From positions 1 to 51,813 of the forward strand of contig JANXNI010000043.1 of the NCBI GenBank assembly GCA_025354165.1: a stretch of 51,813 nucleotides of DNA. Reading direction: 5' to 3'. The notes beneath the pieces are model-generated. The model searched no databases. It was given only the letters and a program-made list of their open reading frames with translations, and had not been told where the DNA came from. A program made the position numbers and the translations under genes. This document shows positions 29,363 to 50,459 of the stretch, piece after piece. The DNA comes from Burkholderiales bacterium. GTDB lineage: Bacteria; Pseudomonadota; Gammaproteobacteria; Burkholderiales; Casimicrobiaceae. Position 1 is the stretch's first letter. Every line of letters begins with the position of its first letter.

Positions 29363-30712
29363 TCAAAACTCGGTGTGCAGGCGAACCGATGCGACGCGCA
29401 CCGGCCCGCGATCCGCGTTATAGGCGGGATTACGGATGGACTGAAAGTCCGCGCTGAGCCACGCCGCTTTCATCACATTCCAGCGATAGAAGGCCTCAGT
29501 GATCGTTTCCGGGCGATAGTTGAGTGCGCCGTCGCCGATAAAAAATCCAAGACCACCGCGAGCCAGATAAGCGCGATGCGACGCCGATAGTTCGTTGCTT
29601 GCGAGCGCCAGCCCAATCACGTCCTGACTGCGACCCCACGACGCGCCCGTGATCGACGTCCCCAGAGACAGCGATCGGTCAATCTCGGTGTATGCATAGG
29701 TTTCGGTCTTGCCGTCAGCCCACATCGCGCGCGCAAAAACACCAATCTCCGGCGTGATTGACTGCTCGGCGTTGATGCCGACGCCCACTTTTGCACGCTG
29801 CCCTGTTCGTACGTTTTCAATACTGGGCGTCGTTCCCGTGCGATCCGCCAGCGTCAGCGCGTCGCTGAAGCGTGCCATCGTCGCAACATTGCAGAAAGCG
29901 AGCAGGCGCAACTTCCCCGGCTGGCTGGCCAGCGTGTGCGCGCGTTCAATCTCGATCTGATCGCCGTAGTTTTTGAACAGACGGTAGTCAAGCGACTGCC
30001 CGTTCGGTTGCTTCGGTTGTGCAAAGCGCCCGAAGCGAATCGCCCAGTCATCGCGAAAATATTCCAGCGCAAAACCCGAGGTATAGCCGCGCGCATCAGC
30101 CGCGAAATCGAACGCGCCGTGAGTCAACAACGCCCAGTTCAAAAACTCCGCGCGTGGATCATGCGCATAGGTGTTGTCGTCAAATAAGTCCTGCACCGAC
30201 AGCGTGCCCGCGGTGAACACCAGACGCTCTTTGCGTTGGGTTCCGGCCAGTTGATTGGTGTCGGCTTCGACCTTTTGCTCATCGCCGCCCAAGTCCCAGG
30301 TTTGCCGCAGCAACGAGCGCGCGCGATAAAGCTTCAGCACGGCACCCGAGGTACGCGCCAACTCGCCGTTCGGAAAGCCGCCCAGCCCGGTCAAGCCTGA
30401 GAGCGGGACGCCTTGAGCGACTTCCGGGTTGAGATAAATCTCGGTACCGGGCCAGAGTCGAACGCCAAATGCAGCGGTCGCCGTGAACGAGTAGCTGGCT
30501 TCCTGACTGGACGAAAGGCTGTTGCCGCCCGAGTACGCTGCGCGAAACGCCCGTTTGCTTTGAGTGACGTAAGTTGACTGAAACCGGACGTCCCAATCGA
30601 ATGGAGACGCTGTGGGAATGGCATCTTCGGCAGTCGCGGCTGGCGAAAAAAGCGCCAAAAGCAGACAGCCGAGTAAAGCGAGCGATTTCAAATCAAAGCG
30701 GCGTGGAAGCAT
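29363..30712 (-). CDS. OprB-type carbohydrate-selective porin
   Basis: 449 residues. The signal peptide ends in ATA-ED (about residue 28). The mature part is a beta-barrel with alternating aromatic strands. Its C-terminal blocks resemble the OprB family: WGRSQDVIGLALASNELS, GGLGFFIGDG, LNYRPE and NPAYNADRGPV, ending in LHTEF with a terminal Phe. It is an outer-membrane channel, probably for sugars or related solutes. No sugar transporter or regulator is adjacent, so the substrate cannot be inferred. Confidence 0.82.
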   Translation of the reverse strand: MLPRRFDLKSLALLGCLLLALFSPAATAEDAIPTASPFDWDVRFQSTYVTQSKRAFRAAYSGGNSLSSSQEASYSFTATAAFGVRLWPGTEIYLNPEVAQGVPLSGLTGLGGFPNGELARTSGAVLKLYRARSLLRQTWDLGGDEQKVEADTNQLAGTQRKERLVFTAGTLSVQDLFDDNTYAHDPRAEFLNWALLTHGAFDFAADARGYTSGFALEYFRDDWAIRFGRFAQPKQPNGQSLDYRLFKNYGDQIEIERAHTLASQPGKLRLLAFCNVATMARFSDALTLADRTGTTPSIENVRTGQRAKVGVGINAEQSITPEIGVFARAMWADGKTETYAYTEIDRSLSLGTSITGASWGRSQDVIGLALASNELSASHRAYLARGGLGFFIGDGALNYRPETITEAFYRWNVMKAAWLSADFQSIRNPAYNADRGPVRVASVRLHTEF

Positions 30713-30789
30713 GCGTCACCGGGGTCGGATCGAGCGCGGCGAGCGGATTGCCCGAGCAGCGACTTACCCGATTATCTCTCGAGCTTAAA

Positions 30790-31491
30790 TCAGCTTCGTG
30801 AAACCTTCGTGACAGGTGGCACAGCAATCTTGACCCCCGCTGTGGTGCCGCGCAGTTTCCACATCACGCGCAGCCCGAGCAACACGGCGAACACACAGGC
30901 GTAAATAATCGGCTGCGTCAGATCCTTTTTCACCAGCCACCAGTAGTGCACAACGCCAAGAATCGCGATGACATACACGAGATAGTGAATACGCTGCCAG
31001 AGCTTCGCGCCGAGCTTTTTGATGATGGCGTTGTTCGATGTCACTGCGAGCGGAATAAAAAGCAAAAACGCCGCAAAACCGACCGTAATGAAGGGTCGCT
31101 TGATCACGTCCTTGATAATATCTTCGACATCAAAAAATCGGTCAAACCAGATGTAGGTTGTGAAGTGAAGACAGACGTAGAAAAACGCCAGAAGCCCGGC
31201 GGTGCGGCGCAGGCGAATGAGCCACGGCCAGTTCAAAAGTTTGCGCAAAGGCGTGATGGACAACGTCACGGCGAGCCCCACCAGCGTCCACGTTCCAGTC
31301 GAACGAGTGATGAATTCGATAGGATTTGCGCCGAGTTGATCGGTGAAGAAGCCAACGACCAGACGAAGTAGCGGCAACATTCCCAGCAGAATCAGCGCCC
31401 ATTTGACGCGCTGCACCGCAGGCGTGCTGGGGTTCTTCCAGGTACGCGTGACGACGGGACTACCGTTTGAGCTTGCTAGGTGAAGAGTCAT
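30790..31491 (-). CDS. msrQ: Heme-binding membrane subunit of methionine-sulfoxide reductase
   Basis: 233 residues from the ATG at 31491. A TTG 18 codons upstream is an alternative. Six membrane segments carry the conserved His of the ferric-reductase-like fold: LHFTTYIW, RIHYLVYVIAILGVVHY and neighbours. MsrQ passes electrons from quinol to MsrP, which repairs oxidised methionines in periplasmic proteins. MsrP itself lies 12.4 kb away at 43930-44886 on the same strand, with the polyene cluster between. This split is unusual for the pair. Confidence 0.93.
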   Translation of the reverse strand: MTLHLASSNGSPVVTRTWKNPSTPAVQRVKWALILLGMLPLLRLVVGFFTDQLGANPIEFITRSTGTWTLVGLAVTLSITPLRKLLNWPWLIRLRRTAGLLAFFYVCLHFTTYIWFDRFFDVEDIIKDVIKRPFITVGFAAFLLFIPLAVTSNNAIIKKLGAKLWQRIHYLVYVIAILGVVHYWWLVKKDLTQPIIYACVFAVLLGLRVMWKLRGTTAGVKIAVPPVTKVSRS

Positions 31492-31992
31492 AAGAGCGGA
31501 AATCGCGTCAATACGGGCGGGCGGTCGCTTGAATCGCAAAAACAAACAAAATGCATTCGATCCCTATTCCATTTACGGGCATTGATGTCATGCCGTCGGT
31601 TACAGCGGACAGGCAAGACAGAAGAACCAGCTGCCAAAAATTACAGAGCCACCCATCGACAACGCCTAAAGAATGAGAATGCAGTGCGTTAAATCAAGCT
31701 TGTCGTAACGACGCAACAAAGCTTACGCCGCTGTGATGAAATTGGCATAAACGTCGTGACCGCTTTCCCAGATCACAGTTGGTGAAGCACCAATGGCGCA
31801 CTCTCAACAGCGAATCAGAGCAACGCAACAATGTTCGGGTAAGCACTTGGACTTGACGCATTGTCATTATTCTAGAATTGGGATGCTTTGTGCCTGCGGC
31901 ACGCTGGATAAAAACTCGATGAGAGACAAGGCAACGGACGCCGCCAAATCATCGAATAGGTATTTAAAACATATAAGTTGGGGTAGTTAACA
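31492..31992. promoter_or_regulatory. 501-bp control gap between msrQ and the polyene-like cluster
   Basis: No coding sequence is convincing here. The gap must hold the promoters of msrQ (leftward) and of the cluster (rightward). The stretch before the lipoprotein gene is AT-richer (31840-31990). It contains a TTGACG near 31855 and several TATTCT/TATTTA-like boxes, none with ideal spacing. No clear operator palindrome or riboswitch was found. Confidence 0.4.
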
Positions 31993-32376
31993 ATGCGTAA
32001 CTTCGTGATTCTGGCAATACTAGCCATCACAGTGGTGGGCTGTAATTCAGTACCGATTTCTAACGTCAGCACGACGCCTGTTACGACTGCATCGAACAAA
32101 TCGCTGAGCCAGGATCAGGTACGTGCTGCCATTGTTCGCGCGGGTGCGGCGCTCGGCTGGCAGTTTAAGGACGAAGGCGCAAGCACGCTGAATGGCTCGA
32201 TCAACTTGCGCACCCATTCGGCTGATATAGAGATTCCCTATTCTGCGACCAGTTACAGTATCAAATATCGTTCCAGTACAAACCTGGATGCAAAAGATGG
32301 CAGCATCCACAAAAACTACAACGGCTGGATTCGGAACTTGAACCGTGGCATTGCCGCTGAGCTTTCGAAATTATGA
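31993..32376 (+). CDS. Small lipoprotein, first gene of the polyene-like cluster
   Basis: 127 residues. The lipobox VVGC gives Cys17. The mature part contains a compact domain (LSQDQVRAAIVRAGAALGWQFKDEG through VKYRSS-like strands) that recalls small periplasmic lipoproteins of unknown function. It overlaps the ACP gene by 4 bp. Aryl-polyene clusters often carry a small lipoprotein, and a role in export or anchoring is inferred only from position. Confidence 0.75.
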   Translation: MRNFVILAILAITVVGCNSVPISNVSTTPVTTASNKSLSQDQVRAAIVRAGAALGWQFKDEGASTLNGSINLRTHSADIEIPYSATSYSIKYRSSTNLDAKDGSIHKNYNGWIRNLNRGIAAELSKL

Positions 32377-32660
32377 TGCTGCCGGCGACCGCATCTGCGT
32401 TTTCCGCGCGCGAACTCGCGACTCTGGTCGTCGAAGGGCTCCATCTTGAAGATTTGGATCCGCAGCAGCTAGATCTGACTGCCCCACTGTTCGATGGTGG
32501 ACTCAATCTGGATTCGCTTGACGTTCTGGAAATATCTCTAGTCATTCAGCAGCGCTACGGCGTCAAATTGAAGGCGGATGATCCCAACAACAAGGCGATC
32601 TTTGCCTCACTGCAGAGCCTTGCCGATCACGTTGCCGCAGTGCTGAGCGCCAGAGGCTAG
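32373..32660 (+). CDS. Acyl carrier protein of the polyene-like cluster
   Basis: 95 residues. The phosphopantetheine Ser lies in GLNLDSLDVLEI, the standard DSL motif, within a four-helix ACP of normal size. It carries the growing chain for the KS/CLF, KR and dehydratases. Aryl-polyene clusters usually contain two ACPs; only this one is present. It starts at the first of two ATGs (32373), overlapping the lipoprotein stop by 4 bp. Confidence 0.9.
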   Translation: MMLPATASAFSARELATLVVEGLHLEDLDPQQLDLTAPLFDGGLNLDSLDVLEISLVIQQRYGVKLKADDPNNKAIFASLQSLADHVAAVLSARG

Positions 32661-32667
32661 TCCGGAC

Positions 32668-33081
32668 GTGACCTGGTTTGAGCCGCTCGCTACAGTGGCT
32701 TCGTGGCAAACCTTCTCGGCGCTGTTGCTACTTTGGCTGGCATTTTTCTTCGGTCGCACGCTGCGAACGGGACAGGTACCGCTCATCGAGCGAATTGCCC
32801 GCATCAGTGATCCAACTCTGACCACGGCGCTCTGTCGATACACGCGAAGTCTGACGGCCGTCTGGTCCGCCTATTTTGTGGTTGCGGCAGTCCTGTCGCT
32901 GACCCGGAGCACTGCGTCCGTCTGGACGGGTGCCTGGGTCTGGTTAGGTGCTGCTGTACTTTTCATTGGTGAGCACCAATTGCGCCCGCACCTGTTTCCC
33001 GAGCAGACATTCCCCGGCGTGATGCAGCAGATACGCGACACTTGGCATGTGTGGCATGTCGGCCAGAAAAAATCGGATTGA
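32668..33081 (+). CDS. COG4648-type membrane protein
   Basis: 137 residues from a GTG at 32668. Three or four hydrophobic segments (for example WQTFSALLLLWLAFFFG, AVWSAYFVVAAVLSL and GAWVWLGAAVLFIGE) are followed by a charged C-terminal tail. This short family is a regular member of aryl-polyene clusters and has no proven biochemical role. It is likely an inner-membrane scaffold for the synthase. Its TGA overlaps the TTG start of the ligase gene. Confidence 0.8.
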   Translation: MTWFEPLATVASWQTFSALLLLWLAFFFGRTLRTGQVPLIERIARISDPTLTTALCRYTRSLTAVWSAYFVVAAVLSLTRSTASVWTGAWVWLGAAVLFIGEHQLRPHLFPEQTFPGVMQQIRDTWHVWHVGQKKSD

Positions 33082-34481
33082 CTCTGTCTGTGCGTCCGCT
33101 AACCGATGTGCCCCTCCTGGCAGCGCCCAGTCACCTGGACGCACCGGCTGTAGTGGGCGCAGACCATGTTTGGACCTGGCGTCAGATACATGCCGCATCA
33201 GTTGTACTTGCCGAGCAGTTAGAGGACGTCGCGACACTCTGCAACTTGTGCGCTTCGCGCGTCGGATTTCTAGTTACCTGGCTTGCGGCGATGCGTTGCG
33301 GCTGCCAGCAATTACTTCCGCCTTCCGGTGGTCACTCCGATCTGGTTGCGATATTGCAATCTAGCGCGCGCCCGCTCATCATCGTCGACGACATTCAGTT
33401 GCTCAAACCACACTGGGCAGAGCACGCACGCTGCCGGGTTCATGTCCCGCAGGTCGTGGCGCTGCCGTTTGCCGATGCCGATTTAGCGTGGTCACCGGAT
33501 TGGGACGCGCCCACCGTGCGCCTGTACACATCCGGTAGTACTGGCGATCCCGAACCGCAGATCAGGACATTGCGGCAATTGGTACGTGGTGCGCAATTGC
33601 TTGGCGCGCAACTTGATCGGGAAATCAATGGCGGATTGTCGGCGGTGCGCCAGATCATCTCCAGCGTGCCGCCGCAGCACATGTTTGGCGTTGAGACTTC
33701 GGTCATGCTTTCACTGGTGCATGGTATTCCGGTACACGAATGTCGTCCGTTGCTTGCTGCCGACATTTGTGCAGCGCTCGCGGGTTGCGAGGGTGGTGTC
33801 GCCTGGGTGGCGACCCCACTGCATTTGCGCGCTGTCGCGCAATCCGGAGAAATCTTGTCCAACTGCCGCGTTGTGATTTCTTCCACGATGCCACTTGCGC
33901 CAGCTCTAGCGATGCAGGCCGAACTGTTTGCGGAGGCACCCGTACTTGAGATCTACGGATCGACCGAAACCGGAGCCATAGCGATTCGCCGAAGCGTGCG
34001 TGGTGCGCAGTGGCAAGCAATGGCGTGCGTACGCGTTGAAGCGCTATCAACGGGCGCGGGCATTCGGGTTTGGGGCGAACACTTTCCTTCGCCACAGACA
34101 CTCGAAGACCAGATCGCGACGGACGCGGAAGGCAACTTCACGTTACTAGGGCGCAAGGGCGACGTCATCAAGATTGCCGGGCGACGCGCTTCACTGGCAG
34201 GGCTAAACCTGCTGCTGCAAGACTTGCCGGGCCTGACCGATGGCGTGTTCTATCTGCCCGATACCGGTGAAGCTACGCAGCGGCTTGTGCTGATACATGC
34301 GGGAGCGCGCTTGAATCGCGCAGCAACGACGAACTGGCTACGAGCACGCATGGATCCCGTATTCCTGCCGCGCAGCATTATCTGCATCGAGCGCCTGCCA
34401 CGTACGGACAATGGAAAATTGCAGCAGTCGGCTCTTATGCAGATATTCTCTGAATGGCGAGCCGGCGTGGATGGGAAATGA
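33078..34481 (+). CDS. Acyl-ACP/acyl-CoA ligase (AMP-binding enzyme)
   Basis: 467 residues from a TTG at 33078; a GTG at 33090 is equally possible. The adenylation P-loop is LYTSGSTG, the A5 motif is EIYGSTETG, and the C-terminal Lys region is RTDNGKLQQ. It resembles the ApeH-type ligase, which activates an aryl or acyl acid and loads it on the cluster ACP. Which starter it uses cannot be told, as no tyrosine/histidine ammonia lyase or chorismate lyase gene is present. Confidence 0.85.
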   Translation: MTLSVRPLTDVPLLAAPSHLDAPAVVGADHVWTWRQIHAASVVLAEQLEDVATLCNLCASRVGFLVTWLAAMRCGCQQLLPPSGGHSDLVAILQSSARPLIIVDDIQLLKPHWAEHARCRVHVPQVVALPFADADLAWSPDWDAPTVRLYTSGSTGDPEPQIRTLRQLVRGAQLLGAQLDREINGGLSAVRQIISSVPPQHMFGVETSVMLSLVHGIPVHECRPLLAADICAALAGCEGGVAWVATPLHLRAVAQSGEILSNCRVVISSTMPLAPALAMQAELFAEAPVLEIYGSTETGAIAIRRSVRGAQWQAMACVRVEALSTGAGIRVWGEHFPSPQTLEDQIATDAEGNFTLLGRKGDVIKIAGRRASLAGLNLLLQDLPGLTDGVFYLPDTGEATQRLVLIHAGARLNRAATTNWLRARMDPVFLPRSIICIERLPRTDNGKLQQSALMQIFSEWRAGVDGK

Positions 34482-34801
34482 TGCGCATTGGGTTTGATTT
34501 TTGTGTCCTTGCGAGCCATCCGTCCCTGCCCGGACATTTTCCTGACCAACCTGTGGTGCCCGGGGTTGTATTGCTCGATCACGTGATGACACATCTGCAG
34601 AAAGTGACAGGTCGACGAATTACTCAACTGCAACACGTAAAGTTCACTGCACTCGCGCGGCCCGACGAACAGAATCACGTTCGGTGCGAACTCACCGCTG
34701 CGCGAGTGTCGTTTCGTGCCACGACGCTGCGCGATGGAGCGGTGATCGAACTCGCCAATGGCATGCTATTGCTGCAGGGTACTGACAGGTCCACGCAATG
34801 A
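34478..34801 (+). CDS. 3-hydroxyacyl-ACP dehydratase (FabZ/ApeI-like)
   Basis: 107 residues. The hot-dog fold signature GHFPDQPVVPGVVLLDHV near residue 20 carries the catalytic His. It removes water after ketoreduction to give the conjugated double bond. It overlaps the ligase and acyltransferase genes by 4 bp on each side. A second dehydratase at 39371 lacks this motif. In aryl-polyene synthases two such subunits (ApeI and ApeP) form a heterodimer, and that is expected here. Confidence 0.88.
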   Translation: MMRIGFDFCVLASHPSLPGHFPDQPVVPGVVLLDHVMTHLQKVTGRRITQLQHVKFTALARPDEQNHVRCELTAARVSFRATTLRDGAVIELANGMLLLQGTDRSTQ

Positions 34802-35685
34802 AACACTGGACCGAGCGTAGCGAACGCGGCAGCGTGTGGTTGATCCGCCTGATTGTCTGGCTGGCGCGAGCAGTGGGGCGCCCCCTGTGCCGTGCGCTGC
34901 TGCATCCGATTGTGTTTTATTTTGTGCTGACTGATGGTGTCGCGCGTCGTGCATCGACCGAGTTCCTGCAGGCAGTGAATGGTCGGCCAACGCGCTGGAT
35001 AGAGGTGTTTGCCCACATCTATTACTTTGCATCCACGCTGCTTGACCGTGTCTACATGGCAGCAGGCGACTTTGACCGGTTTCAGGTCACGATCGAAGGA
35101 CTGCCACTGGTAGATCGTGCGCTACAGCCCGGCGGAGGCTGCCTGCTGCTGGGCTCGCACCTCGGCAGCTTTGATTTAATGATTCTCGCGCATCGCGCAC
35201 TGGATTCGCGCCCGGTTAACGTGATGATGCGTGTCGATCCGCGCTCGCGGGTCCGGAACATTGCAGGCATTGATGACGGCACGCTGCGCGTGATTCCGCT
35301 GGGTCAGCCAGACAGTTTTTTGCGCGCCTATGATCTGCTCACTCAGGGTGAGATCGTTGCCGTCCTGGCTGACCGGGTTGACGGAGCGGCCAGCCTGCCA
35401 GTGAACTTTCTGGCTCGGGGCACAGCGATGCCGATTGCCCCCCACGTACTGGCGGCTCGCAGTGGCGTCCCAACGCTCATGTGCTTCGGGCTCTACGAAG
35501 GCGGAAATCGTTATCGCATCGAATTTGTCGAATCTGGCGCAACTGCGTCAAGCGCCAGCCGCGGTGCCGAATTGCAACCAGTTGTTGACCAGTATGCCGC
35601 GATGCTCGAACAGTATGCCCGGCGCTACCCACTGAACTGGTTCAACTTCTATCCTTATTGGCGTACCGACGGGGGCGCAACATGA
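34798..35685 (+). CDS. LpxL/HtrB-like lysophospholipid acyltransferase
   Basis: 295 residues. An N-terminal hydrophobic anchor precedes the catalytic HX4D motif, HLGSFD, near residue 121. A later block (VAVLADRVDG, PVNFLARGTAMPIA) matches lipid A acyltransferase-like proteins of aryl-polyene clusters. It should join the polyene chain to a lipid or glycolipid acceptor at the inner membrane. Gene overlap is 4 bp on both sides. Confidence 0.87.
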   Translation: MKHWTERSERGSVWLIRLIVWLARAVGRPLCRALLHPIVFYFVLTDGVARRASTEFLQAVNGRPTRWIEVFAHIYYFASTLLDRVYMAAGDFDRFQVTIEGLPLVDRALQPGGGCLLLGSHLGSFDLMILAHRALDSRPVNVMMRVDPRSRVRNIAGIDDGTLRVIPLGQPDSFLRAYDLLTQGEIVAVLADRVDGAASLPVNFLARGTAMPIAPHVLAARSGVPTLMCFGLYEGGNRYRIEFVESGATASSASRGAELQPVVDQYAAMLEQYARRYPLNWFNFYPYWRTDGGAT

Positions 35686-36254
35686 CCATTGCGTTTCTGC
35701 GGCGCATGACGCTCGCGTTAGCTCTGGCCGGTTTAGGCGCGACTTCAGCGCACGCACTCACACTCGCCGAATTGCAGCGCATGTTGAAGACTTCTCCGGT
35801 AGTGGACGTGCCTTTTCACGAAGTACGCGAATCGCCCTGGCTGACAATGCCGGTCGAGTCACGGGGAACGATGCGCTCTACGTCTCAAAGTCTGGAAAAA
35901 CGCGTCGAATCTCCTCGCCAGGAGACGTGGCGGCTTTTGCCTGATCGTATGGAGTGGGTGGGGGCAGACGGCATTGAGCGCAAGCAAATACTTTTCGCTC
36001 AGGCTCCGGCAGTGGCGACGCTGGCCAATGCAATTCGCCGCATCGTGGCGGGTGATTTGCAAGCTTTGGAGTCGGATTTTCGAATTTCACTCAGCGGCGA
36101 CGAGCGACACTGGACGGCGCAATTGCATCCCGCAGACGCCAAAACAGCGCGCTATCTGGATCATCTGGAGATGCTGGGTGCAGGCGCGCAACTACAAGCC
36201 CTCATTGTCGTTGAGCGACAGGGTGAACGCACCACTACGCGCTTCCGCCCATAA
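35682..36254 (+). CDS. LolA-like outer-membrane lipoprotein carrier protein
   Basis: 190 residues from the ATG at 35682, overlapping the acyltransferase stop by 4 bp. The signal peptide ends in AHA (about residue 25). The mature protein shows the half-barrel LolA fold pattern (VDVPFHEVRESPWL, ESRGTMRSTSQSLEKRVESP, DHLEMLGAG). Cluster-specific LolA homologues are thought to carry the finished polyene lipid through the periplasm. The gap to the methyltransferase gene is 19 bp. Confidence 0.85.
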   Translation: MTIAFLRRMTLALALAGLGATSAHALTLAELQRMLKTSPVVDVPFHEVRESPWLTMPVESRGTMRSTSQSLEKRVESPRQETWRLLPDRMEWVGADGIERKQILFAQAPAVATLANAIRRIVAGDLQALESDFRISLSGDERHWTAQLHPADAKTARYLDHLEMLGAGAQLQALIVVERQGERTTTRFRP

Positions 36255-36273
36255 CCCAGAACGCAGGATTGCC

Positions 36274-37341
36274 ATGTACGAACACGACCCATTGAGCGCG
36301 ATTGACGCCGTCACCGCAGCGCAGTGGCTGGCATTTGCGCCGCTGGCGTTTCAGGCCACCGCGATCATGCGCGATCGCGGCGTGCTTGCTGCACTCGCGG
36401 AAGCCGATACAACCGCAGGCCGTTCGATTGACGAGGTCGCGGTCTCCTGCGGTTTGTCGGTCTACGCCGTTCGCGTACTGCTCGAAGCCGGGCTCGGCTT
36501 GCACATCGTCTGGCGGCGCGATGAACGCTACCATCTCGGCAAACTCGGACGATTCCTGCTTGACGACGAGATGACCGGAGTCAACTTCGATTTCACTCGC
36601 GACGTCTGCTATCAGGCCGCAGCTCATCTGGATGAGTCGCTGAGTCAGGGGCGACCTGCGGGCCTCAAGACGCTGGGCCCGTGGAACACGCTCTATGAAG
36701 GGCTATCGGCCCTCTCCGAACCAGCGCGAGGCAGTTGGCACGCGTTCGATCATTTTTATTCAGATCGTGCGTTCCCCGCTGTTTGCGAACGTCTCGCAAA
36801 CGATCTACCGACGCGCATGCTTGATGTGGGCTGCAACACTGGGAAGTGGGCCGAGCTTTGCCTGGGCCGTTTTCCAGAATTACAGGTCGGATTGGTCGAC
36901 TTATCGCCGCAGCTTGAGCGCGCTCGCGCGCGTTTGACGGCAGCAGGGTTAGTTGAACGGGTTCAACTGCATCCCCTCAATTTACTTGACCCCAAGGCCG
37001 TGCTACCCGGAGGGTATGACCTGATTTGCATGAGTCAGTTTCTCGACTGCTTCTCGGATGAGCAAATCGTCGATATTCTCGTTAAGGTGCGAGCTGCGCT
37101 GCCAGCGGGTGCACGACTGTGGATTCTTGAGCTGTTTTGGGATCGGCAGCGCTTCGCGGCTGCCGCACTAAGCCTGCAACAGACGTCGCTATACTTTGCC
37201 TGCATTGCCAACGGGAATAGCCAGATGTATGACTCAGCAGTGTTCCTGAAACTCGTCGAGCGATCAGGCTTCGTGGTGACTGCGCTGACTGATGGTGTGG
37301 GTGGTTACCACACACTTCTGGAGTGCATCGTGGCCGCCTGA
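36274..37341 (+). CDS. Class I SAM-dependent methyltransferase
   Basis: 355 residues from the ATG at 36274. The N-terminal 90 residues form a winged-helix dimerisation-like domain (SIDEVAVSCGLSVYAVRVLLEAG). The SAM-binding motif I, MLDVGCNTGKWAE, starts near residue 181, with LVDLSPQLE after it. This plan is common in O- and C-methyltransferases. Aryl-polyene head groups are often methylated, which fits. The exact target is unknown. Confidence 0.83.
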   Translation: MYEHDPLSAIDAVTAAQWLAFAPLAFQATAIMRDRGVLAALAEADTTAGRSIDEVAVSCGLSVYAVRVLLEAGLGLHIVWRRDERYHLGKLGRFLLDDEMTGVNFDFTRDVCYQAAAHLDESLSQGRPAGLKTLGPWNTLYEGLSALSEPARGSWHAFDHFYSDRAFPAVCERLANDLPTRMLDVGCNTGKWAELCLGRFPELQVGLVDLSPQLERARARLTAAGLVERVQLHPLNLLDPKAVLPGGYDLICMSQFLDCFSDEQIVDILVKVRAALPAGARLWILELFWDRQRFAAAALSLQQTSLYFACIANGNSQMYDSAVFLKLVERSGFVVTALTDGVGGYHTLLECIVAA

Positions 37342-37360
37342 GTGCAGCCCGCCATTCTTT

Positions 37361-38554
37361 TTGTTATCGGATCTCAGTTTGCTTGGTATCTCGGCCTCTA
37401 CTGTCGTGCACCCTGCGGGGCACGGCGTTGCCGCTTTGTGGAGCGCAATCGAGCAGTGTCGCACCGGTCTGCGACAAAACGACTTGACCTGGTGCGATCT
37501 GCCGGGCTGGATCGGCGCAGCACCGGACGTTGACGACACAGCGCTGCCCAAGCACTTGCAATCGTGGGAATGCCGCAATCATCGTCTCGCCTGGTTAGCG
37601 CTTCAAGACTCGCTTTTTTCTCAGGCGGTCGCTGCCGCGATTTCCCGTTATGGCGCGATCCGCATTGGCCTGATTCTCGGGACGAGTACGTCCGGCATTC
37701 GTAGCTCCGAGATTGCCTACGCGCAACGGCGCGAGACAGGTCAATGGCCAGCCAGCTTTCAGTATCGCCGCAGCCATTCTGTCGATGCGCTGTGCCGCTT
37801 CACCGCTACCGTACTGAGTCTGCAAGGCCCGATGGTCGCCGTCTCCACGGCGTGTTCGTCGAGTGCGAAAGTATTTCTGACCGCTCAGCGCTGGATTGAA
37901 GCTGACTTGATTGACGCTGCCGTAGTCGGTGGCGTCGACAGTCTGTGTTTGTCAACACTTCATGGTTTCGACGCGTTGCAGTTGCTTTCACAACAGATTT
38001 GTCGGCCTTTTGATGTCGCGCGCGACGGTATTTCGATTGGCGAAGCTGCGGGTTTCGTGCTGCTTGATCGCGCGCCTGCGCCCGTGCATTTTCTGGCCGG
38101 TGGCGAATCCAGTGATGCCTGGCACATGTCGACGCCACATCCATCCGGGCAAGGCGCGCAGGATGCGATGCGCGCTGCACTCGCTGCCGCCGATCTGACT
38201 TCGGGTGATATTGGCTACGTCAACGCGCACGGAACCGCCACGCCTGCCAATGACCGCGCAGAGGCGACCGCGCTGGCAACGGTATTTGGCGAGCGCGGGG
38301 TTGCAGTGTCGTCAACTAAAGGCGTCACCGGCCATACGCTGGGTGCGGCCGGCATTGTCGAAGCCATCGTGACCACCACAGCACTCGAAAAACAGGTTCT
38401 GCCCCCCTCTGTAAATTTACTTAACCCGGATCCCGATCTACGGGCGCTTGATCTCATAGCTGATGTGCGATCCGCGCGTTTTCGCTACGCCATGAGCAAT
38501 AATTTCGGATTCGGTGGCAGTAATTGTGCGCTGATTTTCGGTCGCTCTGATTAA
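37361..38554 (+). CDS. Beta-ketoacyl-ACP synthase (KS) of the polyene-like cluster
   Basis: 397 residues from a TTG at 37361. No ATG or GTG gives a sensible start near the expected N-terminus (LSDLSLLGISAS). The catalytic set is Cys165 in VSTACSSSAK, His in NAHGTATPAND and His in GVTGHTLGAAG, with the GFGGSN C-terminal motif. It extends the chain by malonyl units. The chain-length factor gene follows directly, so a KS/CLF heterodimer as in aryl-polyene synthases (ApeO/ApeC) is likely. Confidence 0.9.
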   Translation: MLSDLSLLGISASTVVHPAGHGVAALWSAIEQCRTGLRQNDLTWCDLPGWIGAAPDVDDTALPKHLQSWECRNHRLAWLALQDSLFSQAVAAAISRYGAIRIGLILGTSTSGIRSSEIAYAQRRETGQWPASFQYRRSHSVDALCRFTATVLSLQGPMVAVSTACSSSAKVFLTAQRWIEADLIDAAVVGGVDSLCLSTLHGFDALQLLSQQICRPFDVARDGISIGEAAGFVLLDRAPAPVHFLAGGESSDAWHMSTPHPSGQGAQDAMRAALAAADLTSGDIGYVNAHGTATPANDRAEATALATVFGERGVAVSSTKGVTGHTLGAAGIVEAIVTTTALEKQVLPPSVNLLNPDPDLRALDLIADVRSARFRYAMSNNFGFGGSNCALIFGRSD

Positions 38555-38555
38555 C

Positions 38556-39374
38556 GTGAAAAGCCTGCGCTTCAACCTTCATGCGGCCGGCGTACTTGCC
38601 CCGGGCATAGATTCTGTGGCCGATTTACGCGCAGCTTGCCGTGCTGCGCAGCCGCCTGCGCCGCTGACATCCGTACAACTGCCCAGCCCGTCTGCACTAC
38701 CTGCCAACGAGCGTCGCCGCAGCAGTCAGGTCGTGCGGTTAACGCTGGCCTGCATCGAACAGGCGTTGCAGACAAGTCCCTTTCCGGCTGACGCGTTGCG
38801 CTCGGTATTTGCTTCCGACGAAGGCACTGGCGAGGTATGCCAGCAAATGCTTGAAGCACTGGCCACCACACGCCAGATCTCGCCATTGTTGTTCACCAAC
38901 TCGGTACACAACGCGCCTTCCGGTTACTTCTCGATCGCCTGGCGCAATCGCCAGTCGGCGACCGTTGTCAGCCTTGGGCTGGAGAGCTTCGCCAGTGGGC
39001 TGCTGTGCGCTGTGTCTGAAGCTGTTTCCGCTGAACAACCGGTTCTACTTGTCGCCTATGACCCGGCAATGAGCTCGCCGATGGACGAGTTATTGCCGGT
39101 TCGCGAAGCGATGGCCACTGCGTGGATCATTACTGCCGGATCAGTAGCTACGGGCGCGCCGCTGTTAGCGTCATTTGCGTTGACGCTGGAGCGGGATGAA
39201 ACGGTATCACCATCTGCGTGGCCGAGCTGGATGCCCGAGACTTGGGCCGCTCACAGCAGCGCGCGAGCGTTAGCGGCGTTGGCTTTGCTGGACGCAGCAC
39301 CGGACACGATCCTTCGCTTCACATTGGGCGCGCAGCTACTGTGTCTGCGACGCGTTGATGAAGTCCCCGCATGA
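38556..39374 (+). CDS. Ketosynthase-like chain-length factor (CLF)
   Basis: 272 residues from a GTG at 38556, one base after the KS stop codon. It resembles the N-terminal KS half (FTNSVHNAPSGYFSIAWRN, SLGLESFASGLLCAV) but has no active-site Cys at the expected spot and no His motifs. That is the hallmark of chain-length factors. It should pair with the upstream KS and fix chain length. Overlap with the next gene is 4 bp. Confidence 0.87.
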   Translation: MKSLRFNLHAAGVLAPGIDSVADLRAACRAAQPPAPLTSVQLPSPSALPANERRRSSQVVRLTLACIEQALQTSPFPADALRSVFASDEGTGEVCQQMLEALATTRQISPLLFTNSVHNAPSGYFSIAWRNRQSATVVSLGLESFASGLLCAVSEAVSAEQPVLLVAYDPAMSSPMDELLPVREAMATAWIITAGSVATGAPLLASFALTLERDETVSPSAWPSWMPETWAAHSSARALAALALLDAAPDTILRFTLGAQLLCLRRVDEVPA

Positions 39375-39799
39375 TGCTGGATAGCGTCGGTATTCAACGC
39401 ATCGTACCGCAGACGGGGGCGATGTGTTTGCTCGAAGCCGTAACCCGGTGGGACGCCACGCAGATCGTCTGCCGTGCGTTGCCGCCCAACGCGGCGCATC
39501 CGCTCGCGCGCGACGGCGTCGTTCCGGCGGTGGCAGCAGTCGAATACGCGGCACAAGCCACGGCAATACATGGTGCGCTGTTGAACAATGCGACTGCGCC
39601 TCAGGCGGGCTTGCTGGCCAAGCTCACCGACGTGACATTAGACTGCGATAGTGTTCCCGTCAACGGCGGACCGCTCAATGTGCAGGCCGCATTAGTCAGC
39701 GCTTCTGCCGCAGGATGCCTCTACACCTTTAAAGTGACCACTGTGCTCGGCCCCATTGCACAGGGTCGCCTGATGATCGCTTTTTCGCGAACAGCATGA
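39371..39799 (+). CDS. 3-hydroxyacyl-ACP dehydratase-like protein (ApeP-like)
   Basis: 142 residues, hot-dog fold type. The N-terminal QRIVPQTGAMCLLEAVTRWD resembles the ApeP and 3-hydroxymyristoyl dehydratase family. The HFPxxP motif of FabZ is absent, and a VVPAVAAVEYAAQATAIHG helix is present instead. It probably forms the second half of the heterodimeric dehydratase with the product at 34478. Gene overlap is 4 bp on each side. Confidence 0.82.
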   Translation: MMLDSVGIQRIVPQTGAMCLLEAVTRWDATQIVCRALPPNAAHPLARDGVVPAVAAVEYAAQATAIHGALLNNATAPQAGLLAKLTDVTLDCDSVPVNGGPLNVQAALVSASAAGCLYTFKVTTVLGPIAQGRLMIAFSRTA

Positions 39800-40539
39800 T
39801 GAAAAAACCTCAGTCTCAATCTCGACGCGCGCTGGTCACTGGCGGTAGCGGTGCGATCGGCGCGGCCATCTGTCGCGCCTTAGCGAGACAAGGTTTGCAC
39901 GTTGTAGTGCATGCCAATCAAGGCATTGATCGTGCGCAATCGTTAGTAGCCGAGCTGGTGGCAACGGGCGGGCAAGCCAGCGCGATCTGTTTCGATCTCG
40001 CCAACGCGGATCAGGTGCAAAACGCCGTCGAAACCCTGCTCGCGAGCGGCCCCATTCAGGTACTGGTAAACAATGCAGGCGTGCATCGCGATGTGCTCAT
40101 GGCGGGTATGGAATATGCTGCCTGGCAGGAGGTCATCGACACAAACTTGAACGGTTTTTTCCGCGTCACACAGCCGCTTTTGCTACCTATGGTTCGCACT
40201 CGCTGGGGACGAATTATCAACATCAGTTCTGTTTCGGGCCAAGCGGGTAACCGGGGCCAGGCTAACTACGCAGCGTCCAAAGCCGGTTTGCATGGTGCTA
40301 CCAAATCACTCGCGATTGAGTTGGCCGGGCGAGGGATTACGGTCAATGCCGTTGCACCCGGAGTGATTGACACGGGTATGGCTGAAGCCGCATTTCCTCC
40401 CGAGAAAATCAGGCAAATGGTACCCACTGGGCGAGCAGGCCGACCTGATGAAGTCGCCGCATTGGTGGCCTTTCTGGCGTCGGACGCCGCGAGCTACATC
40501 ACCGGTCAGATCATTGCGGTCAACGGCGGACTGTACTGA
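39796..40539 (+). CDS. 3-oxoacyl-ACP reductase (FabG-like SDR)
   Basis: 247 residues. The NADPH motif is VTGGSGAIGAAI (TGxxxGxG). NNAG and the catalytic Ser-Tyr-Lys (NISSVSGQAG, then YAASKAG) are intact, with PGVIDTGM after. It reduces the 3-keto group during chain growth, as ApeQ does in aryl-polyene synthesis. The start is the first of two adjacent ATGs, overlapping the dehydratase stop by 4 bp. Confidence 0.92.
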   Translation: MMKKPQSQSRRALVTGGSGAIGAAICRALARQGLHVVVHANQGIDRAQSLVAELVATGGQASAICFDLANADQVQNAVETLLASGPIQVLVNNAGVHRDVLMAGMEYAAWQEVIDTNLNGFFRVTQPLLLPMVRTRWGRIINISSVSGQAGNRGQANYAASKAGLHGATKSLAIELAGRGITVNAVAPGVIDTGMAEAAFPPEKIRQMVPTGRAGRPDEVAALVAFLASDAASYITGQIIAVNGGLY

Positions 40540-40541
40540 GC

Positions 40542-41378
40542 ATGGCGTCGACAGAAACTCCGCAATGGGGCCTGTTCTGGGACGATGTGTGGATGGTAAT
40601 CCCGGCCTACAACGAAGCGCGCACCATTCGCTCGCTGGCGCAGGCGACACTGAGGCAATGTCCACGCGTCATCGTCGTAGATGATGGCTCTAGCGATGGC
40701 ACTGCCGAACAGGTGCATGATCTGACAGTCACGCTTTTGACACATCCCACCAACCAGGGCAAAGCGGAGAGTTTGCGCACCGCGTTCAACTACGCACTTG
40801 CCCAGCATGCACGCTGTGTCATTGCGCTCGATGGCGACGGTCAGCATGACCCCGACGATGCGCCCGGTCTGTTGGCGGCGTGGCAAAAGCACCCAACGAG
40901 CATCGTCATTGGCGCACGCTTGCATGATCGTGCCGCGTTTCCGCTGGCGCGCTATCGCGCTAATCGGTTCGCCTGCTTCTGGATCTCGTGGGCTGCGGGC
41001 CACCCCATCGCAGATTCACAGTCGGGCTTTCGTGTCTACCCGCGTGACGTCATGTGCATTGCGCTCGACGGAAGCGTGCATGGCAACCGCTTTACGTTTG
41101 AAAGCGAGATATTGATCGAAGCGGCGCGGCAAAACCATCGCACACTGGCGGTGGCGATTCGCGGTCGATATCCCGAGAATGCACGTCCCAGCCACTTTCG
41201 CCCGGTCTTTGATATTGCGAAGATCGTGGTGATGGTCGCCGGGCGGCTGCTACGGCAAGGCATGGCGCCTTTGGGCTTATGGCGCAGCCTTAAACCCGCC
41301 GTGGTGCTACCGGGCCGACCGCCCGACACTCGGTATGAATCGCATGGGGTCGATGCGCCGGGCGATGCCTCGCGATGA
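40542..41378 (+). CDS. Family 2 glycosyltransferase
   Basis: 278 residues. The GT-A fold signature is IPAYNEARTI, VVDDGSSDGTA, and the DxD of DGDGQHDPDD. FESEILIEAARQ near residue 185 holds the likely catalytic acidic residue. It has a dolichyl-phosphate-sugar-synthase-like size and lacks a large membrane domain. It probably adds a sugar to the lipid carrier or the polyene. It starts 2 bp after the reductase gene and overlaps the ABC ATPase gene by 4 bp. Confidence 0.88.
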   Translation: MASTETPQWGLFWDDVWMVIPAYNEARTIRSLAQATLRQCPRVIVVDDGSSDGTAEQVHDLTVTLLTHPTNQGKAESLRTAFNYALAQHARCVIALDGDGQHDPDDAPGLLAAWQKHPTSIVIGARLHDRAAFPLARYRANRFACFWISWAAGHPIADSQSGFRVYPRDVMCIALDGSVHGNRFTFESEILIEAARQNHRTLAVAIRGRYPENARPSHFRPVFDIAKIVVMVAGRLLRQGMAPLGLWRSLKPAVVLPGRPPDTRYESHGVDAPGDASR

Positions 41379-42112
41379 ACGAGAACACTTGCGTTCTGGC
41401 GGCAGAGCAGCTCGTCTATCGCTATCCGAAGCGGCTCGAACCCGCGTTGAACGGCGTCAGCCTGCAACTTGTGCGCGGTCAGGCCGTGGGGCTGCTGGGG
41501 CCGAATGGTTCGGGCAAGTCAACCCTGATCAATCTGCTCAATGGGCTCCGCGCGCCTCAGAGCGGGCACATTACTCACGGCGCCGAGCGTAAGGCTGTCG
41601 TTGCCTGGGTGCCTCAGGAATACGCGTTCTACCCAGATCTAAGCTGTCGCGAGAATTTGCGCTTTTTTGCCGGCATGCTGGACTTGACGACGAATGAGGC
41701 AACCCGCCGTGTTGACGCCGCGCTGTCGGCCTGCCTGCTGCACGAGTTCGCCGAACAACGCGCGCGGCATTGCTCGGGCGGTGTGCGTCGTCGATTGAAT
41801 CTGGGCATCGCCCTGCTGCAACAACCCGACGTGCTGCTGCTTGACGAACCGACGGTGGGGGTGGACCCGCAATCGCGAAGCTTCCTGCTTGACCGGGTGC
41901 GCGACCTGATGCGCGCAGGCACTGCGGTGCTCTACGCAACGCACTACATGGAAGAAGTGAGCGCGGTGTGCTCACAGATTCTGCTGCTCGATCACGGCCG
42001 CGTCCTGGCCAGTGGCGCGCTTGACACGCTGTTGCGTGGCGAGGGCGACGTGCCGTTTGCAAATCTGGAAGCGCTGTTCACGCATTACACGCAGCGCGGG
42101 CTGCGCGATTGA
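41375..42112 (+). CDS. ABC transporter ATP-binding protein (ABC-2 exporter)
   Basis: 245 residues. Walker A is GPNGSGKST, the signature CSGGVRRR and Walker B VLLLDEPTVGVD, followed by the H-loop YATHYMEEV. It is of the DrrA/CcmA type that energises ABC-2 permeases. It overlaps the glycosyltransferase gene by 4 bp and the permease follows at once. With the permease it is the only exporter in the cluster, where aryl-polyene clusters normally have an MMPL protein. Confidence 0.93.
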   Translation: MNENTCVLAAEQLVYRYPKRLEPALNGVSLQLVRGQAVGLLGPNGSGKSTLINLLNGLRAPQSGHITHGAERKAVVAWVPQEYAFYPDLSCRENLRFFAGMLDLTTNEATRRVDAALSACLLHEFAEQRARHCSGGVRRRLNLGIALLQQPDVLLLDEPTVGVDPQSRSFLLDRVRDLMRAGTAVLYATHYMEEVSAVCSQILLLDHGRVLASGALDTLLRGEGDVPFANLEALFTHYTQRGLRD

Positions 42113-42123
42113 TCAGTGACATC

Positions 42124-43332
42124 ATGACGAACCCCCGTCACCACCTGTCAAAACTCATGCAGCTTGTCATGAAGGAATGGCGGCTTTTGCTGCGTAATCC
42201 CCATGGTCTGGCCGCTTTGTTTCTGATGCCGTCAGCCTTCGTGCTGGTGATGTCCTTTACGCTGAAAAACACGTTGATCGTGCGGGTGCCGCTTCCTGCA
42301 ACGGGTTGGGTGCTTGAAGACAAAAGCCCGATTGCCGCGCAATGGTCGCGCGAGTGGCTGGCCCGCCCGGACATGAAGAGTTTTGTGTCACGCGACGCGC
42401 TAAAGGCGGCGCTAAAAGCACGGCAAATCGATGCCGGCATCATTGTGCATGCGCCCTGGCTGGGCGACGACGGTCGACCGCGCACCGAAGCCGTCGAAAT
42501 GTGGCTTGGCAATCGCGTGCAACCGGCGGCAGCGGCGCGGCTGCGCGCGGAACTGAGCTTCTCGATGTTGCAGGTGCAAATGAAAATTGCCGCCGCCGAG
42601 GCCGGGCCGTTCGCGAGCGTATTGCTCAGCAGCGCCGCCAGCAGCGAATTGCTGCCTGAGCACGGTGCGCCGACGATCCGTTATCTCTATGAAATCGAAT
42701 CCGGCCGAACCATGACGGCTGTGCAGCAGAGCGTACCGGCGTGGCTCATCTTTGGCATGTTCTTCGTGGTCATCCCGATTGCTGGCGTGTTGATTCAGGA
42801 GCGCAATGATCGAACGTTGACACGTCTGACGACTTTTGGCGTATCGCCGGGTCAAGTACTCGCCGGGAAGCTGATTGCCCTCATGCTGTTGAACTGGGTA
42901 CAACTGGCCTTCATGCTGCTGGTCGGACGTGTGCTGGTGCCGTTGTTGGGCGGGGACGCGCTCAATTTGAGCATCGCGTATGGCTGGTTTTTGCTGATGG
43001 TCGCAGCGACGAGCGCGGCAGCGGTGGGGCTGGGGCTATTGATCGCCGCCCGCACGCGCAGCTTTGAGCATGCCGCTGCGCTGGGCGGTGGCATCAATGT
43101 GATTCTGGCGGCGATTGCCGGCGTCATGGTGCCGCGCATGTTGATGCCGCCGACGCTACAAACCGTGTCGGAATATTCGCCCATGGGATGGGCGCTCGAT
43201 GGCATGCAATCGGTGTTTCTTGGCGACCCGGACGCCGCGTTTATCCTGCCGCGTGCCGCGCTCCTGTTGGCGTTCGCCGCAGTGTGTCTGCTACTAAGCT
43301 GGCAGCCCATTCGACATCAGGAACCCGCCTGA
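42124..43332 (+). CDS. ABC-2 type permease, YbhS/DrrB-like
   Basis: 402 residues from the ATG at 42124. An in-frame TTG at 42109 overlaps the ATPase stop. One N-terminal membrane helix (FLMPSAFVLVMSFTL) precedes a large soluble loop of about 180 residues, then five C-terminal helices. The loop is probably periplasmic. The plan suits an exporter of a lipid-like product with an extracytoplasmic acceptor domain. It ends the cluster and converges with the DUF2306 gene. Confidence 0.88.
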   Translation: MTNPRHHLSKLMQLVMKEWRLLLRNPHGLAALFLMPSAFVLVMSFTLKNTLIVRVPLPATGWVLEDKSPIAAQWSREWLARPDMKSFVSRDALKAALKARQIDAGIIVHAPWLGDDGRPRTEAVEMWLGNRVQPAAAARLRAELSFSMLQVQMKIAAAEAGPFASVLLSSAASSELLPEHGAPTIRYLYEIESGRTMTAVQQSVPAWLIFGMFFVVIPIAGVLIQERNDRTLTRLTTFGVSPGQVLAGKLIALMLLNWVQLAFMLLVGRVLVPLLGGDALNLSIAYGWFLLMVAATSAAAVGLGLLIAARTRSFEHAAALGGGINVILAAIAGVMVPRMLMPPTLQTVSEYSPMGWALDGMQSVFLGDPDAAFILPRAALLLAFAAVCLLLSWQPIRHQEPA

Positions 43333-43361
43333 TCCAGACCGCCAGCGCAAACGGGCGACAG

Positions 43362-43757
43362 CTACGATGCGAACAGCCATGTGTGAAGCATCCTGCCCGG
43401 TGCCAGAGCGAAGCTGCCTGCGACCAGAATACCGCCGATATACACCCCAATCATCGACCGCGCATGCGCGCCAACGTTATGACTTTTGGCGGCGAAATAC
43501 GCGTGAGGAACCAACGTAAGTACGACAACGCTAAAAATATGAATGAAGCCAAAGTGACCCAGAATCGAGGGCCCGAGTTTGGCGGGCAGAAACAGCGTGA
43601 TGATCGCGGTGGCAAACATCAGCACCATATAGATTTTGCCGAGCGTCCGATGCAGCGGGCTGCCCTTGCGCGAGACCATCATGTAGGTGCCGATCACGAA
43701 CGACGGCAACACGGTGGCCAGATGAGCGTAGACGAGGGGCAGTTCGGAGGTGCGCAT
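43362..43757 (-). CDS. DUF2306-type four-helix membrane protein
   Basis: 131 residues from the ATG at 43757. An in-frame start further upstream would add a non-hydrophobic stretch. Four membrane helices carry His residues near their ends (LVYAHLATVLPSF, SPLHRTLGKIYMV, LGHFGFIHIFSV, GAHARSMIGVYIG). The family has no firm function, and the His pattern could bind a cofactor. It lies between msrP and the polyene cluster on the msr strand. Confidence 0.75.
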   Translation of the reverse strand: MRTSELPLVYAHLATVLPSFVIGTYMMVSRKGSPLHRTLGKIYMVLMFATAIITLFLPAKLGPSILGHFGFIHIFSVVVLTLVPHAYFAAKSHNVGAHARSMIGVYIGGILVAGSFALAPGRMLHTWLFAS

Positions 43758-43929
43758 GGTGCGGGGTTTTCGGGCGGTGGGCGATGACGGATTTAAGCCG
43801 CCCTCCTCCGCCCGCAAAAGCTCCCTGCGACCAACTGACCGTTGGGTGCGCCAACGGCTTCCTGCCTTCGCCAATTTCAAACACGAGCCGAATCATGCGT
43901 GGCCCGTTCGCTGCCGCTTTCGTTTTTAG

Positions 43930-44886
43930 CTAGAAAAACTTGGCCAAATCCATCCCGGCGTACATCGACGCGACCTGATCGCCGTAGCCGTTGTACATCA
44001 GCGTTTTGCGCTTGCTGAATTCGCCTAAGCGACGCTCGCTGGCCTGACTCCACCGTGCATGATCCACCGTTGGATTCACGTTGGAATAAAAGCCGTATTC
44101 GCCTGGCCCCGCCTTGACCCACGCGGTGCGCGGCTCTTTCTCGACGAAGCGGATTTTGACAATCGATTTACCGCCCTTAAAGCCGTATTTCCACGGCACG
44201 ATCATGCGCACCGGCGCGCCGTTCTGGTTCGGCAACATCTCGCCGAACGCGCCCAGCGTTAACAGCGTCAATGGATGCATCGCCTCATCCATGCGCAGGC
44301 CTTCGGTGTACGGCCAGTCGAGCACGCCTGAGCGCAGGCCCGGCATCTGTGCCTTGTCCGCCAGCGTGACAAATTCGACGTATTTCGCGTTGCCTTTCGG
44401 TTGCACCTGCTTGATCAGTTCCGACAGCGGAAAACCTACCCACGGAATCACCATCGACCACGCCTCAACACAGCGAAAACGATAAATGCGTTCTTCCAGC
44501 GGGGCGAGCTTGTACAGCGCATCAATGTCAAACACCTGCGGCTTCAGCACTTCGCCTTCGACCGAGATGGTCCACGGACGCGTCTTCAGCGATTTCGCCA
44601 TCACCGGCGGGTCGGTCTTGTCGGTGCCGAATTCGTAGTAATTGCAATAGCCCTTGAGCTCATCAAATTTGTTGAGCTTTTCACCCGCTGGCATGGCGTA
44701 GCTGGCGTTTGGCTTCACCCCCATGAGCTTCGCGCCCTGCGCTTGTGCGTCACACGCCGCCAGCGCGGGCAAGCCCGCAATCAGCCCGAGACCCGCAGCC
44801 TGCTTCAGCCAGTCGCGGCGCGCATTGAACTCGGACTCCGAATTGATCTCGGAGGGCAAAATGTCGGAGGGACGGCGAATCAACAT
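43930..44886 (-). CDS. msrP: Periplasmic molybdopterin methionine-sulfoxide reductase catalytic subunit
   Basis: 318 residues. The twin-arginine signal [17 protein letters not shown] sends it folded to the periplasm. The sulfite-oxidase-fold core has the Mo-ligand Cys in [11 protein letters not shown] and the conserved [11 protein letters not shown] region. It reduces methionine sulfoxide in envelope proteins with electrons from MsrQ. The msrQ gene is 12.4 kb away on the same strand, not adjacent as is usual. Confidence 0.94.
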
Positions 44887-44940
44887 AAAGAATTCCTGAC
44901 AGTGTTGCAGATGTGTCGTTCAATCAAGGAGAAACCTTTC

Positions 44941-45879: not shown

Positions 45880-45884
45880 ATGGC

Positions 45885-46004: not shown

Positions 46005-46028
46005 AGCGCGGCAATGTGCGTCACCGCA

Positions 46029-50446: not shown

Positions 50447-50459
50447 GACGTTGACCTCT

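Follow-up and report, generated by a model that had tools for sequence, protein, structure and literature searches.

The widespread pigment clusters of the aryl-polyene (APE) and xanthomonadin type usually combine a ketosynthase (KS) of the ApeO type and a chain length factor (CLF) with an exporter of the MMPL/RND kind (ApeM/ArcP), and MMPL proteins of this kind are presumably ion-driven. Here we describe a 15-gene operon in a Burkholderiales bacterium of the family Casimicrobiaceae (assembly GCA_025354165.1), located on a stretch of 51,813 nucleotides (contig JANXNI010000043.1, positions 1 to 51,813) that is referred to as the window. The operon (31993-43332, + strand) has the biosynthetic genes of such a cluster and ends in an ATP-binding cassette (ABC) ATPase and an ABC-2 permease. 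We consider it likely that it encodes an aryl-polyene lipid pathway (xanthomonadin/APE class), in which the MMPL/RND flippase was replaced once by an ABC exporter of the dialkylresorcinol (DAR) type.

The closest described systems are the xanthomonadin/arcuflavin-type clusters, represented by the arc genes of Azoarcus sp. BH72 (PMC3949708) and by a cluster in Azospirillum ramasamyi (L082). These share with the window operon the acyl carrier protein (ACP), a COG4648-like protein, the ligase, dehydratases, acyltransferase, LolA, KS, CLF, FabG and a family 2 glycosyltransferase (GT2), and they likewise have a single ACP and no thioesterase. In contrast to these clusters, the window operon has the ABC pair in place of ArcP/MMPL and a methyltransferase of the ApeB/FlxJ type in the MMPL slot, and it contains no polysaccharide deacetylase, halogenase-like oxidoreductase or chorismatase.

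The APE cluster of E. coli (apeA-R, as given in PMC8253772; sequence L298) resembles the operon in the ApeA-like lipoprotein (39%), the ApeB-like methyltransferase (46%), the KS (41%) and FabG (46%). Compared with that cluster, the window operon lacks the second ACP and second KS, the thioesterase, ApeM and ApeN, carries the ABC pair instead of ApeM, and encodes the GT2 and the acyltransferase separately, while its LolA and second dehydratase are too distant to match. According to the same study, the RND-type ApeM is only proposed to carry APE lipids over the inner membrane, and no APE metabolites were detected in an apeM deletion of E. coli (PMC8253772), which argues that an exporter step is needed.

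The Operon Lacks an MMPL Exporter

The last two genes encode a DarF-like ABC transporter ATPase (41375..42112; PF00005), the start of which overlaps the GT2 stop by 4 bases, and a DarI-like ABC-2 permease with an extracytoplasmic domain (42109..43332), assigned from PF12698, the trees and a structure model. The ATPase keeps the Walker A, SGG signature and Walker B motifs. A preliminary description of the window had given the permease a soluble loop of 180 residues; hydropathy and the structure model both shorten it to about 150 (residues 54-203). The model has a predicted local distance difference test score (pLDDT) of 81.6, and the nearest solved folds are ABCH and ABCA proteins.

No MMPL gene was found inside the operon. 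In the genome as a whole, one of the open frames matched by PF03176 was taken for SecD on inspection by eye, and the other five, 1039-1117 aa long, have a size that suggests RND pumps. When searched with the APE-type MMPL protein from the Azospirillum cluster, neither the assembly (95% complete) nor any of seven further genomes that carry the ABC variant gave a match at E <= 0.001; the positive controls, two genomes with MMPL-type clusters, responded at 1e-145 and 1e-198. Since the MMPL/RND exporter (ApeM/ArcP) is missing, the operon is a variant rather than a standard member of the aryl-polyene/xanthomonadin type. The preliminary description had likewise reported that the usual MMPL gene is absent and that the operon ends in an ABC ATPase and permease, and its reservation was that an MMPL exporter might be encoded elsewhere; the assembly-wide search recovered no APE-type MMPL.

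The ABC Variant Recurs in Other Genomes

A two-permease alignment was used to scan genome_contigs (84,980 species). Two short peptide patterns matched 148 stretches; relatives are encoded by 111 of these, from which the best 80 were retained (L085-L164). Thirteen of the retained loci (L085-L097) show 56-78% identity. The entire 15-gene order was found in six of the thirteen, namely in Ramlibacter WS9, a Rubrivivax bin, two proteobacterial bins, a Ramlibacter bin and Caenimonas soli; five others are cut by contig ends, with a visible part that agrees with the operon order, and L093 shows the permease alone. Because the same 15 genes are found in the same order in six other genomes, the gene set is far beyond chance. 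In all six complete operons, the slot held by MMPL in the nearest clusters of the MMPL type (L067-L069) is taken by the methyltransferase, and the ABC pair comes after the GT2. The operon is a real, conserved variant of a well-known cluster type. It is undescribed in the literature searched, as no paper on an ABC exporter replacing MMPL in an aryl-polyene cluster was found outside subscription journals. A comparison of the permease with plasmid records gave no match; a Variovorax plasmid match (H3) is a lone KS, and an unannotated Caballeronia record was examined by tblastn only. Positions 9246-11053 of L096 hold an exporter pair of Ramlibacter pallidus that is kept without the polyene operon.

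The KS (37292..38554, true start probably near 37380) contains the Cys-His-His motifs and scored 496 bits against the subfamily PRK09185 (cut-off 407), as compared to 237 bits against the FabF model (cut-off 494). It is followed by the CLF (ApeC type, 38556..39374; PF13723), in which the alignment shows no active-site Cys. The KS of the ApeO (PRK09185) type paired with a PF13723 CLF is the combination expected of an aryl-polyene/xanthomonadin-type cluster. The best Protein Data Bank relatives of both proteins are chains of the same two entries (7f28_B and 6qsp_A for the KS; 6qsp_B and 7f28_A, the only solved relatives, for the CLF). We take these entries to be aryl-polyene KS-CLF complexes, the database search itself having returned general names only, and sequence divergence is the sole difference between these heterodimers and the window pair.

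In the KS tree, which left out L097 (same contig as L066) and fragments of less than 330 aa outside the variant, the proteins from ten variant loci (two of them fragments) form a single clade (support 98/100), with FabF elsewhere in the tree. The clade is closest to the MMPL-type clusters L067-L070, with a support of 82/95 that is under the mark for strong support. The possibility that the KS is an ordinary fatty-acid enzyme (FabF), which had been raised in the preliminary description, was ruled out by the score below the FabF cut-off and by the separate placement of FabF. The distinct branch suggested in the same description is borne out by the KS tree and by the exporter tree below, both of which are monophyletic for the variant, and the ABC pair that it proposed to look for at the same position elsewhere was recovered in the six complete operons.

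Aryl-Polyene Clusters Across the Order

A CLF search of 399 genomes of the order gave a match at E <= 1e-6 in 116 genomes, our own included. Gene surroundings were fetched for 95 of the other 115; the 20 that were left out are all weaker matches (E 8e-18 or worse, plus a few at 1e-18 to 3e-19). An MMPL gene was in view in 76 of the 95 loci and the ABC permease in one, the metagenome bin G330. Most of the 19 loci with no MMPL in view are cut or split. When only the 70 loci with LolA, CLF and ligase in view are considered, MMPL was present in 68; the exceptions are L166, which ends at LolA, and L237, which continues for about 0.7 kb beyond LolA with no MMPL match.

Two cluster types were distinguished. 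A thioesterase or a fused glycosyl/acyltransferase is present in 22 loci (like Klebsiella L083), 19 of which have two ACPs. The other 73 loci, referred to as type A, have neither (like the annotated Azospirillum cluster L082), so that the complete lack of thioesterases among them follows from how the type was defined. One ACP was in view in 47 type-A loci, none in 23 and two in 3, and a second KS in 7. The window operon belongs to this type-A, single-ACP aryl-polyene branch, and its lack of a second ACP, a thioesterase and a stand-alone KS is therefore ordinary. The preliminary description was right about the absence of these three genes from the operon, but not in viewing it as a special, streamlined trait. 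Xanthomonadin clusters lack the second ACP, and E. coli deletions of apeF and apeK retain part of the pigment, as stated in PMC8253772.

An aryl-polyene-like cluster in genome G143 (L076, 3894-11151) contains two adjacent ligases and a polysaccharide deacetylase; LolA, MMPL and an acyltransferase are absent from the part in view. A DAR cluster (L030) is also present in this genome.

Probable Relationship of the Exporter to Dialkylresorcinol Clusters

The preliminary description had missed the probable kinship of the ABC pair with DAR exporters. It had also overlooked that synteny is conserved elsewhere and that the operon is inserted between msrP and msrQ. Most of the other 67 loci (L098-L164), with an identity of at most 40%, are of the dialkylresorcinol kind. 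A DarB-like ketoacyl synthase III (KASIII) or a BtrH-like gene is in view in 47 of these loci, a KS lies within 3 kb in 58, and either is seen in 62. Their gene surroundings match the published dar gene set, which in Azoarcus BH72 comprises darA, B, D, E (BtrH-like), F (ABC ATPase), I (permease), C (ACP) and J (KS), as listed in PMC3949708. The scan patterns favored the DAR exporter family. A pattern-free search across the order nevertheless gave comparable results: of 13 other genomes besides G330, seven have a KASIII or BtrH-like gene near the pair, three have neither, and three were covered with short flanks.

An unrooted tree of the ATPase and permease was inferred from ten variant rows and 39 of 77 other loci, chosen by hand. 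The variant forms one clade (100/100) inside a group of 24 rows (100/100), which also includes betaproteobacterial DAR exporters and two Opitutaceae rows; DAR-linked rows are found on both sides of the tree. The window pair shares the combination of ATPase and ABC-2 permease with the DarF/DarI exporter, and its permease has an identity of 28-37% with the 20 A2 rows that lie outside the clade and come mostly from DAR loci. Unlike the DarF/DarI exporter of DAR clusters, the window pair follows a GT2 in a polyene operon, with no DarB or BtrH beside it. Given a single KS clade and a single exporter clade, the simplest reading is that MMPL was swapped for the ABC pair once, in the common ancestor of a Burkholderiales clade.

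The likeness of the ABC pair to DarFI would also suit a cluster that makes one half of a polyene-dialkylresorcinol ester (as arcuflavin and flexirubin), with the DAR genes encoded elsewhere. We regard this as very unlikely. Domain scans detected neither the DarB-type KASIII nor the BtrH-like DarE that mark a DAR cluster among the gene families of the operon, and a DarB query (E <= 1e-15) gave no match in any of the eight variant genomes, our own included, whereas both control genomes were positive. A polyene-DAR hybrid pathway is thus probably not at work here.

Similar methyltransferases lie near six of the 67 loci L098-L164, and an arrival of the methyltransferase from DAR clusters, together with the ABC pair, was considered. 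This idea was abandoned because, of six plasmid records with a match, the one examined (E. coli H17) has the gene at the ApeB position of an APE cluster. In two loci, L127 and L134, aryl-polyene genes with a CLF lie beside a DAR set with its own ABC pair. L127 also shows an MMPL gene, so both exporters can coexist.

Proposed Pathway and Product

The pathway that we propose follows the model put forward for E. coli, with ApeM exchanged for the ABC pair. The ligase would load an aromatic acid onto the ACP, and the KS/CLF, FabG and the two dehydratases would build a conjugated polyene, the ring of which may be methylated by the ApeB-type enzyme. The LpxL-like acyltransferase and the GT2 would attach the polyene to a lipid or sugar-lipid anchor, the DarFI-type ABC exporter would move the lipid-linked polyene across the inner membrane by ATP, replacing ApeM/ArcP, and the LolA-like protein may carry the polyene lipid towards the outer membrane. 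The product, the anchor, the transported substrate, the direction of transport and the order of the steps are what we infer from comparison with that model. In a bolder and more tentative version, the operon could represent a distinct aryl-polyene class in which an ATP-driven exporter, captured from a DAR cluster, took the place of the MMPL flippase in a single event, with a polyene lipid that perhaps has a different starter or anchor.

Several observations weigh against the replacement of the flippase by a DAR-type exporter. Several of the variant assemblies are metagenome bins, with a completeness of 84% for G330, and an MMPL gene could sit in a missing piece; this is unlikely because the same negative was obtained in eight genomes. 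A different flippase could conceivably be encoded elsewhere. The exporter tree is unrooted, its rows nearest to the variant are the two from Opitutaceae (91/84), and the variant stem is long (1.27); a permease-only tree, with two rows of less than 280 aa left out, confirms the single clade (100/100) and leaves the nearest kin open. The Ramlibacter pallidus locus L096 carries the ABC pair with no aryl-polyene genes in about 9 kb upstream and about 10 kb downstream, and the R. pallidus genome contains no operon-type KS and has a DarB-like KASIII elsewhere (42% identical to the query).

The R. pallidus locus and the open frames of RND-pump size in our own genome would both agree with a role of the ABC pair as a passenger or self-protection pump, in which case the polyene lipid would be moved by a general flippase or RND pump encoded elsewhere. 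This explanation appears unlikely, because the position of the ABC pair is kept in the six complete operons and because the APE-type MMPL was found in none of the eight variant genomes, although it accompanies nearly all of the surveyed loci in which LolA, CLF and ligase are visible.

Two further points against the proposed aryl-polyene pathway concern the starter and the pigment. A source of the 4-hydroxybenzoate starter was not found, as neither UbiC (PF04345) nor chorismatase (PF21168) gave a match in our own genome, and each profile matched in only one of the eight variant genomes (UbiC in G330, chorismatase in Caldimonas). An arylpolyene cluster, which may or may not be of the ABC variant, is listed for a Caenimonas species that is described as white (PMC9628874), and pigmentation is therefore not assured; the literature search gave nothing informative on the colony color of Caldimonas. 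The unmatched starter profiles, together with a methyltransferase and an exporter that both differ from the nearest clusters L067-L069, could indicate a related acyl lipid made from another starter (a cinnamate-like or alkyl acid) rather than a 4-hydroxybenzoate aryl polyene, the change of exporter reflecting the change of product. We find this rather unlikely, because APE clusters contain the same kinds of ligase, KS/CLF and ApeB-type methyltransferase, the MMPL-type control genome G250 likewise gave no chorismatase match, and some source of 4-hydroxybenzoate that was missed by the two profiles is presumably required for ubiquinone.

The preferred reading remains an aryl-polyene lipid pathway with an exchanged exporter. 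An ABC exporter that replaces an MMPL protein in an otherwise retained biosynthetic gene set suggests that the MMPL protein is the flippase. The variant is of use as a natural exchange experiment for the study of aryl-polyene export. If the reading is true, two unrelated transport systems that serve the same outer-membrane lipid can be compared, one of them a two-gene system with assayable ATP use and substrate. Genome mining that expects an MMPL gene would misjudge clusters of the ABC type.

Gene Content of the Operon

The 15 genes of the operon are codirectional and tightly packed, with a largest internal gap of 19 bases. The 14 gene junctions comprise six 4-base overlaps (both ABC junctions among them), four overlaps between listed open frames with uncertain true starts, and four gaps of 1-19 bases. 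All genes named in the preliminary description were confirmed by open frames, domain scans and direct comparison. The aryl-polyene logic seen there also agrees with the KS/CLF type, the protein families and the comparisons with APE clusters, and the product class is predicted on this basis.

The operon starts with an ApeA-like lipoprotein (31993..32376), which is 39% identical over 122 aa to the lipoprotein preceding the methyltransferase in the E. coli APE cluster and 53% to the MMPL-type cluster L067. It is followed by a dedicated ApeE-like ACP (32373..32660; PF00550, PRK09184) with a DSL motif, and by an ApeG-like (COG4648) membrane protein (32668..33081), which shares 30% identity over 93 aa with the gene in the ApeG position of E. 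coli and 37% over 112 aa with L067. The ApeH-like, AMP-forming acyl-ACP ligase (33042..34481, true start somewhere after 33042; PF00501) is 35% identical over 459 aa to the L067 ligase. The first of two dehydratases, FabA/Z-like and related to ApeI (34454..34801), has a weak PF07977/FabZ match, and its HFPxxPxxPG motif is present in all seven complete operons. The LpxL-like lysophospholipid acyltransferase (34798..35685; PF03279) has the motif HLGSFD in all seven. The LolA-like periplasmic carrier (35658..36254, true start possibly after 35658; PF19574, LolA_3) is 32% identical to L067 and has no match to the E. coli locus.

The S-adenosylmethionine (SAM) methyltransferase of the ApeB/FlxJ family (36274..37341) scored 419.7 bits against NF053543, below the cut-off of 560, and matches the E. 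coli APE methyltransferase with 46% identity over 351 of 356 aa. Downstream of the KS and CLF are the ApeP-like dehydratase 2 (39371..39799), with no Pfam match, 37% identity to the L067 gene and none to the E. coli locus, the ApeQ-like ketoreductase FabG (39796..40539; PF13561, NF004200) and the GT2 (40542..41378; PF00535), which is 55% identical to the GT2 of L067. The first gene, the ApeG-like gene and dehydratase 2 had no family match in the Pfam and NCBIfam scans and were recognized by direct comparison alone, which for dehydratase 2 involved L067 and L082 only and not E. coli.

The catalytic Cys is missing from the CLF. Across the seven complete operons, the expected motifs are kept in the ACP, ligase, dehydratase 1, acyltransferase, methyltransferase, KS and ATPase. 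Three motif misses are plain residue changes that keep the site (GPNGSGKTT and VLMLDEP in L089; KAVTGH in L087). One GT2 pattern was unmatched in three of the seven rows, and FabG patterns in five to six.

Genomic Setting

The operon is flanked by msrQ (30790-31545) and DUF2306-msrP (43362-44886). In all 15 genus mates with an msrP match, msrP and msrQ adjoin without such an operon between them (one further genome had no match), which indicates that the operon was inserted within this lineage. The empty site of G411, the genus mate closest by msrP, aligns to positions 30242-31491 and 43371-46552 of the window, and delimits an inserted segment at 31492..43370. The CLF had no match in six genus mates, and among ten others an operon-type KS was found only in G411, where it is 47% identical and located elsewhere (G411:C39:6412-7590, L284). 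No 11-mer direct or inverted repeat is shared between 31401-32000 and 43201-43700. The G+C content is 0.590, close to the values of 0.577 and 0.584 in the flanks. The methionine sulfoxide reductase pair msrP/msrQ, split by the operon, may be uncoupled in this strain.

Further downstream, the region 46029-51686 of the window resembles a tandem duplication. A subtilase-like protein is encoded twice (47267-48865 and 50460-51686), and its partner in the duplication is a protein of about 412 residues (46029-47270 and 49208-50446), the C-terminal half of which is nearly identical in the two copies.

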